This document shows, piece after piece, positions 15,924-63,956 of a DNA stretch of 64,000 nucleotides; position 1 is the stretch's first letter, and each line of letters begins with the position of its first letter. The stretch lies in contig CAMNFQ010000002.1 in the NCBI GenBank assembly GCA_946537295.1, forward strand, positions 1-64,000, read 5' to 3'. A model generated the notes under the pieces. It ran no database searches, had not been told where the DNA came from, and saw nothing but the letters and a program-made list of their open reading frames with translations. This DNA is from an uncultured Bacillota bacterium. Its GTDB lineage: Bacteria > Bacillota_I > Bacilli_A > Erysipelotrichales > Erysipelotrichaceae. The position numbers were made by a program, and so were the translations under genes.

Positions 15924-17057
15924 ATGAAGTACCTGCTTGTTCATTGCCATCTTATCGCTGATGGACAAAGAGAATTTCTGGATGGGTCATTACTGATTGA
16001 AGATGACAGGATTAGTGATGTCTTTCCTCAAAGTAATATCAAGCCATCAGATGACACCAAGGTTGTTGATCTGGGTGGACTCATTGTTATGCCGGGCTTT
16101 TTTGATACGCACACCCATGGCATAGATATGATGTCTTTTGATTCCTGTGATCATGAACAGATGGACAGGATCTCTTATGAATTTGCTAAAGATGGCACAA
16201 CTTCCTATCTGGCATCGCTTTCCTATGATATGGGAGCAGAAGGAATAAGAAGACAACTTCAGGAATTTGAAGAGTATGAAAGTCCGTATGCCCGTTTTGA
16301 TGGCTTCCATCTGGAAGGACCATTTCTCAGTAAACTGCATCTTGGTATGGGTGATCCTGATAAGTTTATTGAACCTGATATTGAGATGGTAAAAGACTTT
16401 ATCAGTCAATCAACTAAGATCAGACAGATGACAATCGCCTACGAACTTGATGGAGCTAAAGAGATCGGTAGACTACTCCATGAAAACAATATCAGAGTCA
16501 TGTGTGGACATTCTGATGCCCTGTATGAAGATCTTGATGAATATGTCGATGGCTTTACACATCTGTTTAATGCGATGAGAGGTCTACATCATCGTGATCT
16601 GACCTTGGTCAACTGTGCCTTTATGAACAGATGGTATTGTGAACTGATCGCTGATGGCAATCACATCGATCGCAACGTTTTGAAACTTGCAATAAACAAT
16701 ATCGATAAAGATAAGATCATTCTGGTAAGTGATTCAAGTATTGCCAGAAACCTGCCGGATGGGGATTATGAATTCATCTCCAAGAAGTGTCATAAGAGTG
16801 GTACAAAGTTTATTTCCTTTGACGGACACTATGCCGGCAGTGTAGTATCGATAAATGACGAGATGAAGGTTCTGTATGAACTGGGGGCTAAATATACTGA
16901 TCTATTAATGTATTCAGGTCTGAATGCCTATAGACTCTATGGTCTTGATAAACACTATGGAACATTAAGCAGAGGTAAATATGCTGATCTTGTCATCATG
17001 AATGATGATCTTGATATAAAGAAGGTACTGATGAAAGGAGGATTTATAGATGACTGA
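15924..17057 (+). CDS. nagA: N-acetylglucosamine-6-phosphate deacetylase (second paralog)
   Basis: MPGFFDTHTHG, FHLEGPF, MCGHSDA, THLFNAMRGLHHRD, ELIADGNHID, LVSDS. Confidence 0.88.
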   Translation: MKYLLVHCHLIADGQREFLDGSLLIEDDRISDVFPQSNIKPSDDTKVVDLGGLIVMPGFFDTHTHGIDMMSFDSCDHEQMDRISYEFAKDGTTSYLASLSYDMGAEGIRRQLQEFEEYESPYARFDGFHLEGPFLSKLHLGMGDPDKFIEPDIEMVKDFISQSTKIRQMTIAYELDGAKEIGRLLHENNIRVMCGHSDALYEDLDEYVDGFTHLFNAMRGLHHRDLTLVNCAFMNRWYCELIADGNHIDRNVLKLAINNIDKDKIILVSDSSIARNLPDGDYEFISKKCHKSGTKFISFDGHYAGSVVSINDEMKVLYELGAKYTDLLMYSGLNAYRLYGLDKHYGTLSRGKYADLVIMNDDLDIKKVLMKGGFIDD

Positions 17058-59017: not shown

Positions 59018-59977
59018 ATGATCTGGGTTTTAATAGGAATAATCATCATTCTGATTCTTTTGTTGGCTGGAGGATTCTATGTTTTTAATTCGGTCTTTCT
59101 TTATAATGACCAGCAGAAAGGTGATAAGGAAAGTGCTCTGGATCCCGCAAATATTGATTCAGAAAGTGATCTGATGCGTCCAACCGCCAGAGAATACTAT
59201 AAATTCCGTGAGCCGTATATTGAGAAATTCAATAAGATCTTTTTCAAGGAAGTTTCAATCACTTCTTTCGATAATCTGACACTTTATGGCTATCTTCTGG
59301 AAGGCAATCCTAAGGAAGTTGTCATCTGTGTCCATGGCTATAAATCTTCGATGCAGGAAGACTTTGCGGATCGTATCGAGATCTATCGTAAAAGAGGTTC
59401 CACAATCCTGCTACTTAACGATAGAGCTCATGGAAAATCAGAAGGAAAATATCTGGGATTCTCTGAACATGATAAACGAGATGTTGCCCGTTGGGTCGAT
59501 CTGGTAAATGAGATGTATTATAAGCCAAAGATCTATCTGCACGGTGTATCAATGGGTGGTGCTACAGTCATTCATTGTGCTAATGAAAAACTTGAGAATG
59601 TCTGCGGTATCATTGATGATTGCGGTTTTGATTCAATTGAAAACATCTCAAAATATCTGATCAAGGATATCTACCATATGCCATATTTCCCACTTGGTTA
59701 TCTGGCCTGGTTCTGGTCAATCGTAATTACCGGTATCAGTTTCAATACTTCCAAAGGAGAGAAGTGTGTAAGTGAAACTGATATACCAATACTGTTTATT
59801 CATGGAAAAAACGATCACTTCGTACCATGCAGTATGTCAGAGAGAATGTATAAATATTGCCGCTCACCTAAGGAACTTCATCTGATCGATAATTGCGGTC
59901 ATGCGGCAGCATATATGAGAGCGAAAGATGAATATACAGCAGCTGTAAACAGACTGCTTGATGGAGAATTTAAATGA
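59018..59977 (+). CDS. Membrane-anchored alpha/beta hydrolase
   Basis: N-terminal TM; VVICVHGYKSSMQEDFADR, LNDRAHGKSEGKYLGF, LHGVSMGGATV, FIHGKNDHFVP. Confidence 0.9.
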   Translation: MIWVLIGIIIILILLLAGGFYVFNSVFLYNDQQKGDKESALDPANIDSESDLMRPTAREYYKFREPYIEKFNKIFFKEVSITSFDNLTLYGYLLEGNPKEVVICVHGYKSSMQEDFADRIEIYRKRGSTILLLNDRAHGKSEGKYLGFSEHDKRDVARWVDLVNEMYYKPKIYLHGVSMGGATVIHCANEKLENVCGIIDDCGFDSIENISKYLIKDIYHMPYFPLGYLAWFWSIVITGISFNTSKGEKCVSETDIPILFIHGKNDHFVPCSMSERMYKYCRSPKELHLIDNCGHAAAYMRAKDEYTAAVNRLLDGEFK

Positions 59978-61749
59978 AATATCTTGGAGTAGATTATTAT
60001 CCCGAACAATGGGGAATGGATCTGGTTGATGAAGATCTTGACAATATCGTTGAACTCGGGGCAAATCTGATCAGGATCGGTGATTTTGCCTGGGACAGAT
60101 TTGAACCATCTGATGGTCACTATGATTTCACTTTCTTTGATGAAGTCATAGCCAAGGCCAAGAATAAGGGACTTAAGATCCTGATGTGCGTGCCAGGAGC
60201 CACAATACCTTCATGGTTATATCGGGCACATCCGGAAATAATGAACGAAGATGAAAAAGGCTATCGACAGCCTTTTGGTGCCAGAAGAGGACACTGCTAC
60301 AACAATGACATCTATCTGGAAAAAGTTACATCTTTAGCTAAGGCAATCGCCAAGCACTACAAGGATGAAGAAGCCATCGTTGCCTATCAGATCGAAAATG
60401 AGATCGGACACGAAGGTTCTGACATGTGTTATTGTGAGACATGTCATAAAAAGTTCATCGCCTATCTGAAAAACAAATATCAGGATATCAATGATCTGAA
60501 TGATAGATGGGGAACTTCCTTCTGGAATCAGACCTACTATGAATTTGAAGATATTCCTTTACCTAGACCTTCCTTTGTTGCACAAAACCCATCACTAAGA
60601 CTTGAATGGGAAAGATTCAGAAATCTCTCAACTGTCAATGTCATTAAACTGATGGCTGAAGCTGTAAGAAGTGAAGATCGCAATCACCTGGTTACCCATG
60701 ACTTTGAAGGTGGAACGATCCAGAAACATTTCTCACCATTTGATGTTGCGAAGACCTTGGATTTTGTTTCCTACAACAACTATCCGGTCTGGGGTGGCCA
60801 GAAGGCTCCAATGTCAGAATCAGACCTGGCCTTTACCGTTGATTTTGCCCGTGGTTTCAAGCAGGACAAGATCTGGATCACCGAAGCGATCATGGGTCAG
60901 CAGGGTCATAATGATATCGGTTATGCCCCAAGACCAGATGAAGCCAAGAAATGGTCATTAAGTTCACTTGATCATGGTGTTGAAACAGTTATCTTTTTCC
61001 GTTACCGTGGTTTCATTAAGGGTGCTGAACAGTTCTGTTTTGGAATCCTTGATGCGGATAATGTCAAAAGAAGAAAATACTATGAGACCAAGTCATTCTT
61101 TGAAGAAGCAAGACAAAGAAAGATCGAATATCCAAAGTCAGATGTCGCAATCGTCTATGATTTTGATTCCAAGATCTCCATGTCTTTACAAAGACAGTCA
61201 GATGTCTTTGATTATGAAAAAGAATGTCAGAAGCTCTATAAACAGCTTTATATCAGAAATCTTAACTGTGATATCATCCCATCAGATGCGGATTTCTCTA
61301 AGTATAAACTGCTGATCTTACCATATTTCATCATCATGTCTGATGATTTCAAGAAGAAACTGAAAGATTTCGTTTCTAAGGGCTCAAAAGTCCTCATGAC
61401 GCCACGAACAGCCTGGAAGGATACAGATAATAATCTGGTCTTCAATAAGCGTCTGCCGGTCGATCTTGATGATCTGACAGGATGTGTCATTGAGGAACAT
61501 GAATCATTACTATCAGGTCAAAGTGCCAAGTGTCTTTATGGAAATGAAGAAGGCGAAGGCTATGTCTTTGAGGAACTGCTTAAGGTTACGACCGGTAAAG
61601 AACTGATCAGTTATGTCGATAATCCATTTGGCAAATACTCTGCTGCCGTAGTTAATGATTATGGCAAAGGAAAAGCCTATTATATGGGCACATCATTTGA
61701 TGAAAAAACATTAAACAGGCTATTTGACGAAATTTTAGCGAACGAATAG
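59974..61749 (+). CDS. Beta-galactosidase, GH42 family
   Basis: LGVDYYPEQWGMDLVDEDLDNIVELGANLIRIGDFAWDRFEPSDG, AYQIENEIGHEG, ITEAIMGQQGHND. Confidence 0.93.
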   Translation: MKYLGVDYYPEQWGMDLVDEDLDNIVELGANLIRIGDFAWDRFEPSDGHYDFTFFDEVIAKAKNKGLKILMCVPGATIPSWLYRAHPEIMNEDEKGYRQPFGARRGHCYNNDIYLEKVTSLAKAIAKHYKDEEAIVAYQIENEIGHEGSDMCYCETCHKKFIAYLKNKYQDINDLNDRWGTSFWNQTYYEFEDIPLPRPSFVAQNPSLRLEWERFRNLSTVNVIKLMAEAVRSEDRNHLVTHDFEGGTIQKHFSPFDVAKTLDFVSYNNYPVWGGQKAPMSESDLAFTVDFARGFKQDKIWITEAIMGQQGHNDIGYAPRPDEAKKWSLSSLDHGVETVIFFRYRGFIKGAEQFCFGILDADNVKRRKYYETKSFFEEARQRKIEYPKSDVAIVYDFDSKISMSLQRQSDVFDYEKECQKLYKQLYIRNLNCDIIPSDADFSKYKLLILPYFIIMSDDFKKKLKDFVSKGSKVLMTPRTAWKDTDNNLVFNKRLPVDLDDLTGCVIEEHESLLSGQSAKCLYGNEEGEGYVFEELLKVTTGKELISYVDNPFGKYSAAVVNDYGKGKAYYMGTSFDEKTLNRLFDEILANE

Positions 61750-61776: not shown

Positions 61777-61809
61777 AAGCGAACGAATATACTTTGCGTT
61801 CGCTTTTTT
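61777..61809 (+). terminator. Rho-independent terminator after GH42 gene
   Basis: AAGCGAACG-N11-CGTTCGCTT followed by TTTTT. Confidence 0.8.
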
Positions 61810-61810
61810 A

Positions 61811-61984
61811 CAACGGGCAGTCGTTCTATTCTGACTGATCGAAATATCAGCCCATGGAATTACGGCAGAGGGTAAGTATAGTCTAATGCATCATCGTGAG
61901 GTGATGTGTGAAGGTAATAAAGGCAAATCTTCAGACGCGAATCTATCAAGGCGTATGTGGACTAAGTCATTGGCGACCTTCAAA
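61811..61984 (+). other. Candidate structured non-coding segment / small mobile-element remnant
   Basis: No long ORF; potential stems GGGC/GCCC enclosing two hairpins, a CATCATC-gtga-GGTGATG hairpin with GNRA loop, and interleaved TAGTC/GACTA and GAAGGT/ACCTTC pairings. Confidence 0.4.
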
Positions 61985-61986
61985 AA

Positions 61987-62270
61987 AAAGAAAATAAATC
62001 ATATACAAAAAGTGAGAATAAACCACTCTACGAAATCAGGGAAAACAGTATTACAATAGTTCTTCCGATATTGGAAGAAAAACAGATATGAATGAAGATG
62101 AAAAACAGGTCTATAACCTTATAAAAAGAAAAACAATGTCGAGTTCAGAGATTTTAGCTGATCTGGATTTTGGCAAAACAAAAACTGTAAGAATTATAAA
62201 CAGACTTATAGAAAAAGGATATATCGTAGCGTTAGGGAATGGCAGAAGCAAAAAATACACAGTAAGGTGA
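61987..62270 (+). pseudogene. Frameshifted C-terminal remnant of a COG2865/AlbA_2-type ATP-binding/DNA-binding protein
   Basis: One frame reads SENKPLYEIRENSITIVLPILEEKQI*; the next continues as MNEDEKQVYNLIKRKTMSSSEILADLDFGKTKTVRIINRLIEKGYIVALGNGRSKKYTVR. Together they resemble the C-terminus plus winged helix of that family. Confidence 0.7.
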
Positions 62271-62282
62271 TCAAAACAAAAA

Positions 62283-63956
62283 CTACTGCTGTTTACTGTA
62301 ATAGGCCTCAAGTTCACTTCTGGCAGCTACATAGTATGGTTCCAGGATCTTATCGAACTGTTTTCCCATACCTTCCATGATGATCTTGTCTGCCTGTTCA
62401 AAGGACATCTTATCTTTGTATACTCTCTTGGATACTAAGGCATCATAGACATCAGCTATTGCCATGATCTTGGCTTCCATTGGTATTTCGTTACCTTTAA
62501 GTCCTTCCGGGTAGCCTGATCCATCGACTCTTTCATGATGGTAGTGCGCAACGTTTTCTGCGATCTTCTTGAACTTTTCATCATCAATACTCTCTAAGAC
62601 GGTACTGACGATTCTGGCACCCTCGGCCGCATGTTTCTTCATCTGTTCAAATTCTTCCGGAGTAAACTTACCAGGTTTTCTTAAGATCGCATCATCAACG
62701 GCGATCTTACCCAGATCATGCATTGGAGCAGCCTTGATCAGATCGGAGATGAATTCTTCACTCAGATTGAGCCTGTTGTCTTTTCTGATCTGATCAGTCA
62801 GGATCCTGACTCCTTCAGAAGTCCTTTTGATATGACCACCGGTTGAATTATCACGGCTTTCAACCATGGTCGCCATACCCATGATGAATGCATCGTTCAT
62901 TTCTTCGATATGTTCCGTCTTTTCTTTGACAGCTTTCTGTAACTGCTGATTGAAACGCTGATTCTTGGTGTCATCAGTAATGAAGAGCTGATAACCTCTT
63001 TTTCGTAAACCATCATGCAGGTAATTGATATCGACCTTATAGATACTGTCATCTTTTTCATAGTAGGTATCAGATGGTTTTCTTGATCTGTTACATTCTT
63101 CAAGCCATAGATAGATACTGTTTTTAAGAACCTCATTATTTCTGATGTCCGTATCAACTCTTAGATCACTTAGTTCCGGAAAGATTGTCCTGGCTGTCTC
63201 ATTACTTCCCAGATAGTTGTAGCCAAAATCAAAGGAGGCAAAACCGACATTACCTTTCTGTATCAGTGAATCAATTACCGTATCAGATATATTATAGAGA
63301 TTAAGTTTTTTGATAATAATCAGGTAGACAATCTGGGCTATATTGTAAGTTAAAGGTTCCAGATCAAATCCCAGTTTGATGATCCTTTCAAAGAAGTAGC
63401 AGAAGATCGAAATGAATTCCGTAAAGAATAAGAGGGTTACGATTTTACGGGAAACATCTTTGCGATGGTAATAACCGATATAAAGGCCTATTATATTGAT
63501 CAACAGATAGATAATGACCATTATGTAGAAAACTGGATGAAGGATACCATATTCCTTGATAAGCGATGCGCTGTTGTTGACAAGTTTAAATTCAACGTGG
63601 GAATAGAAGACATCACTTCTTCCGGTGGAAAGAATAATTATATAGACGATCGAACTCAGGACAAAAAAGCCCAGTCTGACCCATTTTTTTACATTGATAT
63701 TACACAGATCCAGCACAGCTAAGGTTATAAATGGTAAGAGGAAACAACCTCCCAGATATATGATCTTGTTTGCCAATAAGGCTTCTTCCAGATTAACAGA
63801 TCGAGAAAACTGAATGTATCCTAAGATCGTGATCGGGATCAGGATAAAGATCATAGTGATGTGAATATTAAAGTGTCTATGCCATCTCCAGACATAGATT
63901 ATACTTAGGACCAAAGATGCAATAAAGGTAATATCGTAATAAGTAAAAATATTCAT
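62283..63956 (-). CDS. Multi-TM sensor with HD-GYP domain (putative cyclic-dinucleotide phosphodiesterase)
   Basis: N-terminal multi-TM region; HDLGKIAVDDAILRKPGKFTPEEFEQMKKHAAEGARIV, HHERVDGSGYPEGLKGNEIP. Confidence 0.92.
   Translation of the reverse strand: MNIFTYYDITFIASLVLSIIYVWRWHRHFNIHITMIFILIPITILGYIQFSRSVNLEEALLANKIIYLGGCFLLPFITLAVLDLCNINVKKWVRLGFFVLSSIVYIIILSTGRSDVFYSHVEFKLVNNSASLIKEYGILHPVFYIMVIIYLLINIIGLYIGYYHRKDVSRKIVTLLFFTEFISIFCYFFERIIKLGFDLEPLTYNIAQIVYLIIIKKLNLYNISDTVIDSLIQKGNVGFASFDFGYNYLGSNETARTIFPELSDLRVDTDIRNNEVLKNSIYLWLEECNRSRKPSDTYYEKDDSIYKVDINYLHDGLRKRGYQLFITDDTKNQRFNQQLQKAVKEKTEHIEEMNDAFIMGMATMVESRDNSTGGHIKRTSEGVRILTDQIRKDNRLNLSEEFISDLIKAAPMHDLGKIAVDDAILRKPGKFTPEEFEQMKKHAAEGARIVSTVLESIDDEKFKKIAENVAHYHHERVDGSGYPEGLKGNEIPMEAKIMAIADVYDALVSKRVYKDKMSFEQADKIIMEGMGKQFDKILEPYYVAARSELEAYYSKQQ

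Follow-up and report, generated by a model that had tools for sequence, protein, structure and literature searches.

A non-coding block near the end of the 64,000-nucleotide stretch analysed here (the window) is, we conclude with high confidence, what remains of a group IIC (bacterial class C) intron that has died and lost its 3' part. Group IIC introns are retroelements that insert just after transcription terminators. The block is flanked by a gene for a GH42 beta-galactosidase (59974-61749, + strand) on one side and a gene for an HD-domain protein (62283-63956, - strand) on the other. The homologous unit begins with the intron 5' end, includes domain I as far as its target-recognising EBS1 hairpin, and spans about 61808-61995 rather than the 61811-61984 of a preliminary description (Table 1). 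It is the front part of the retroelement, from which D2-D6 and the reverse transcriptase (RT) are gone, and the remnant is able neither to splice nor to move.

Table 1. Features of the very probable intron relic and of its flanks in the window
Feature	Coordinates	Strand	Sequence or basis
Intrinsic terminator at the end of the beta-galactosidase gene (insertion target)	61777-61809	+	Stem AAGCGAACG / CGTTCGCTT; T-run 61804-61809
3'-truncated group IIC intron fragment, D2-D6 and RT missing	61808-61995	+	R2, RF02001, C42 copy
Intron 5' end and first stem	61808-61824	+	TTACAAC GGGCA GTCGT; alignments
Domain I hairpin CTGAT-CGAAAT-ATCAG	61835-61850	+	Alignment; relatives GTAGG-TGAAAG-TCCTAC
Domain I hairpin ATGCATCATC-GTGA-GGTGATGTGT	61886-61909	+	Covariation; RF02001 alignment
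Decayed EBS1 hairpin, ACCTT C AAAAAAAA G AAAA	61975-61995	+	R2 alignment
Downstream flank, decayed gene remnant	62021-62270	+	Three-frame translation

Homology was assessed with R2, a covariance model trained exclusively on introns of four genomes of other genera (G056, G118, G243, and G180), the copies of the own genome being left out. R2 matched the window at 61874-61995 with 51 bits (E 6.4e-17, window alone), a match that takes in the EBS1 hairpin and stops at 61995, and it matched a second copy of the block, on contig C42 of the same genome, with 64.3 bits (E 1.9e-21). By these scores both copies are homologous in domain I to RT-bearing introns. The next-best R2 match in the window (16896-17029, 11.2 bits, E 0.014) is probably due to chance. 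At Rfam gathering thresholds there was no match within the window, and RF02001 (group II intron D1-D4) was the sole RNA family that scored meaningfully in either copy, with 27.2 bits (E 0.0014) in the window and 31.4 bits (E 1.1e-4) on C42. Both scores are below the gathering cut-off of 32, which counts against the relic reading; the Rfam comparison suggested in the preliminary description gave no omega RNA but a match to RF02001 below its cut-off. Truncated fragments such as the window copy score under Rfam cut-offs, and they are recognisable by a terminator-adjacent site together with a lineage-specific domain I model. The folding energy of the block was unexceptional (z = -1.27), and folding z-scores gave no information on it.

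The second copy (C42:4230-~4425) is 82-84% identical to the window block over C42:4231-4404 and has unrelated surroundings, and because of it the block, which is non-coding as the preliminary description had it, is more than chance. The search for further copies that had been proposed found this one in the own genome, with ends that are not identical, and none besides the window and C42. The strings and small hairpins named in the preliminary description could be read in the sequence at the places given, and its CATCATC-GTGA-GGTGATG hairpin (within 61886-61909) is real and covaries, with 8 of 17 consensus pairs changed on both sides in the first alignment, which held four relatives. The pseudoknot it had proposed from TAGTC/GACTA and GAAGGT/ACCTTC was not confirmed, because C42 has no GACTA and because GAAGGT and ACCTTC are not paired in the G056 and G118 introns; in the homologues, CCTT, CCAT, or CCGT pairs instead with the opposite strand of the EBS1 hairpin.

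For class C introns the site of insertion is the 3' side of an intrinsic terminator (PMC4424553, PMC4028801). The corresponding target, a hairpin with a T-rich stretch, lies directly 5' of all 13 related copies, the window copy included. In a scripted check, each of the 12 other copies came after a T-rich stretch preceded by a stem of 8 bp or more; the rule applied (stem of at least 6, loop limit of 9) held for 2.2% of random positions drawn from these loci. The window copy stands outside this count because its 11-nt terminator loop exceeds the limit, and its target hairpin was judged by eye. EBS1, the loop of the hairpin that follows GACC, complements the bases right before the intron, with GAAAAC against GTTTTC on C42 (6/6), TGAAAA against TTTTCA in G243 (6/6), AAAAA against TTTTT in G056 and G118, and GATAA against TTATT in G180, where the script listed no exact match because of one G-T wobble. 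EBS1 and IBS1 thus vary among copies yet match each other, and some fragments, that on C42 for example, retain in this pair a record of the original insertion. For the window copy the match is trivial, an A-run against a T-run only, and IBS1 would be the T-run 61804-61809.

Decay is visible in the window copy. Across the intron 5' end and the stem that begins there, relatives read GTGCGAC AGGCA GTCGC and C42 reads GTACGAC GGGCA GTCGT, the C42 stem ACGAC/GTCGT being compensatory to the GCGAC/GTCGC of relatives, and one pair of this stem is broken in the window. The 5' GUGYG has become TTACA in the window and GTACG on C42, against GTGCG or GTGTG in relatives. The EBS1 hairpin, ACCTT GCGAAAACA AAGG on C42 and CCAT GCGAAAAA ATGG in intact introns, has a decayed stem in the window copy, several D1 stems of which are broken, and 3' of this hairpin neither D2-D6 nor RT was recognised. 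With no D5, RT, or GUGYG, the block is therefore a fragment and not an intact intron.

Both copies adjoin gene remnants. The one beside the window copy ends in a 60-aa winged-helix C-terminal ORF (62088-62270; Pfam HTH_27, 24.5 bits), and the part before this piece sits in another frame, indicating a frameshift. This remnant is directly 3' of the intron fragment, and the congener loci examined lack it after their beta-galactosidase gene. On C42 the copy is inserted, in antisense orientation, in a lanC-like gene (L006:3789-4229, - strand; LANC_like, 62 bits) represented by its C-terminal part only, whose frame runs exactly to the intron edge, and no N-terminal part was evident on the other side of the copy. 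Deletions reaching from the intron into the flanking genes would explain the remnants beside both copies.

Among relatives of the same order the family extends to introns that carry an RT, with several copies in G056 (L028, L029, L045); the RT gene of one (L028:2054-3079) has an in-frame stop at a place where the L029 copy reads through. A complete relative from the same family (L048 in G243) shows, in this order, the hairpin GGCAGTCAG/CTGACTGCC, TTTTCA, GTGTGACAGGCAG... (with the 5' GUGUG start at ~441), and domain I. Its ORF at 984-2450 encodes a group II intron reverse transcriptase/maturase (TIGR04416, 359 bits), and D5/D6 follow at 2485-2558 (RF00029, 41.6 bits, cut-off 40). The solved structures nearest to this RT are 7uim and 5hhl/5hhj, which we take to be class C enzymes, and the GsI-IIC RT 6ar1. 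A full intron with the same short domain I as the window copy was not found. RT-less, 3'-truncated class C fragments with intact 5' ends occur at L009, L010, L026, L027, L030, and L050, and in number such fragments roughly equal the RT-bearing copies at the loci seen in the order. Intron leftovers of this kind are ordinary in bacterial genomes, in which the majority of group II intron copies are truncated (PMC4028801, PMC4424553).

The own genome (G000), a draft of 149 contigs and 95% completeness, contains no RVT_1 domain, for which control genomes were positive, and no L028-type RT in a protein search that had no positive control of its own. No D5 was found in the window with Rfam or in the own genome at E<=1, control genomes again being positive. 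An active copy could be missing from these data because the genome is a draft. A model designated R1 matched 10 of the 316 genomes of the order, and among 35 congeners there was no convincing match, one reaching E 0.06. The orthologous beta-galactosidase gene was located at 11 congener loci, and reading on beyond its stop codon showed the insert at none of them. Plasmid and phage collections gave no match, and a pattern search of genome contigs returned only Faecalibacillus intestinalis and F. faecis, which carry fragments of the same intron type.

One feature of the two copies counts against a relic: both break off close together, just after the EBS1 hairpin, and independent random deletions would not obviously produce such a shared breakpoint. 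Two copies in one genome with similar ends, both in proper class C sites and one, on C42, with an EBS1 that fits its own target, would suit a non-autonomous solo domain I element, mobile or functional in its own right, that relies on D2-D6 and RT from elsewhere for splicing or retrohoming in trans, and group II introns split into parts have been produced in experiments (PMC3410883). We nevertheless regard such an element as very unlikely, given a genome with neither RT nor detectable D5, a window copy that has lost GUGYG, a first-stem pair, and the EBS1 stem, RT-less relatives (those listed above) that stop at various points, and 35 congeners without further convincing copies. It appears extremely improbable that class C derivatives consisting of domain I alone are maintained and multiply as minimal non-autonomous units that find terminators by way of EBS1 and borrow catalytic domains and RT in trans. 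An exapted structured RNA, in which the domain I remnant 3' of the terminator is transcribed and has a regulatory role, would account for the hairpins that are kept and for the covariation of the main hairpin in the family, but this covariation is common to intact introns and is therefore older than the truncation. Moreover, the terminator lies before the block, several D1 stems of the window copy are broken, and the locus is not conserved, the 11 congener loci having the gene without the insert, and we give exaptation hardly any credence. Beyond the similar 3' breakpoints, we found nothing positive in favour of either a solo element or an exapted RNA.

The preliminary description had proposed a defective mobile element, a lone structured RNA, or both, and this general idea stands; the families that it named do not, the block being a group IIC fragment instead. 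A non-autonomous, PATE/MITE-like IS200/IS605 element or an omega RNA was suggested by TTTTTTAC on the 5' side, TTCAA on the 3' side, and subterminal hairpins, and the genome does hold a short Y1 (IS200/IS605) transposase fragment, its sole match of this kind, with a 65-aa open frame (G000 C89:6315-6476). However, the TTAC and TCAA-type ends are not conserved between copies and could not be confirmed, because C42 differs at both, having GTAC on the 5' side and ACCTTGCGAAAAC on the 3' side. The genome has just one other copy, no omega RNA or HEARO family matched, the neighbours are GH42 and HD-domain protein genes, and the homology to group II D1 is strong; this reading, the least probable of those weighed, is already refuted by comparing the two copies. 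A group I intron, whose core comprises P3-P8 with P7, was also rejected: there was no group I match at E<=10, and the TAGTC/GACTA pair, besides lacking GACTA on C42, stands in reversed order.

For the group IIC relic we infer the following order of events. Guided by the hairpin and by the pairing of EBS1 with IBS1, an RT-bearing intron would have retrohomed into the T-run that follows the beta-galactosidase terminator, and the same intron type would also have entered a hairpin-plus-T site inside the lanC-like gene on C42. Later deletions may then have taken everything 3' of the domain I EBS1 hairpin, including the RT gene and the catalytic D5/D6, after which all active copies would have been lost from the lineage. 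The relic probably has no present function, and an unannotated structured block would thereby be accounted for as ordinary retroelement debris.

Compared with the group IIC introns of L048 (G243) and the others of the order, the window copy shares the domain I sequence and hairpins, the EBS1 hairpin, and insertion after a hairpin and T-run, but it is without D2-D6 and RT and its 5' end is degenerate; relative to the introns of G056 and G118, moreover, its compact domain I is missing about 100 nt. Likeness to the Geobacillus GsI-IIC and Eubacterium rectale introns was judged only via the RT of L048. The Rfam family RF02001 (group-II-D1D4-3) aligns across the hairpin and the TGAAGG and GGCAAA motifs, whereas most of the middle of the model is deleted in the window copy. 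A further close parallel is with the truncated group II copies of bacteria (PMC4028801, PMC4424553), which are likewise intron fragments without an IEP, at intergenic sites and among gene remnants, and from which the window copy differs in its particular sequence alone.
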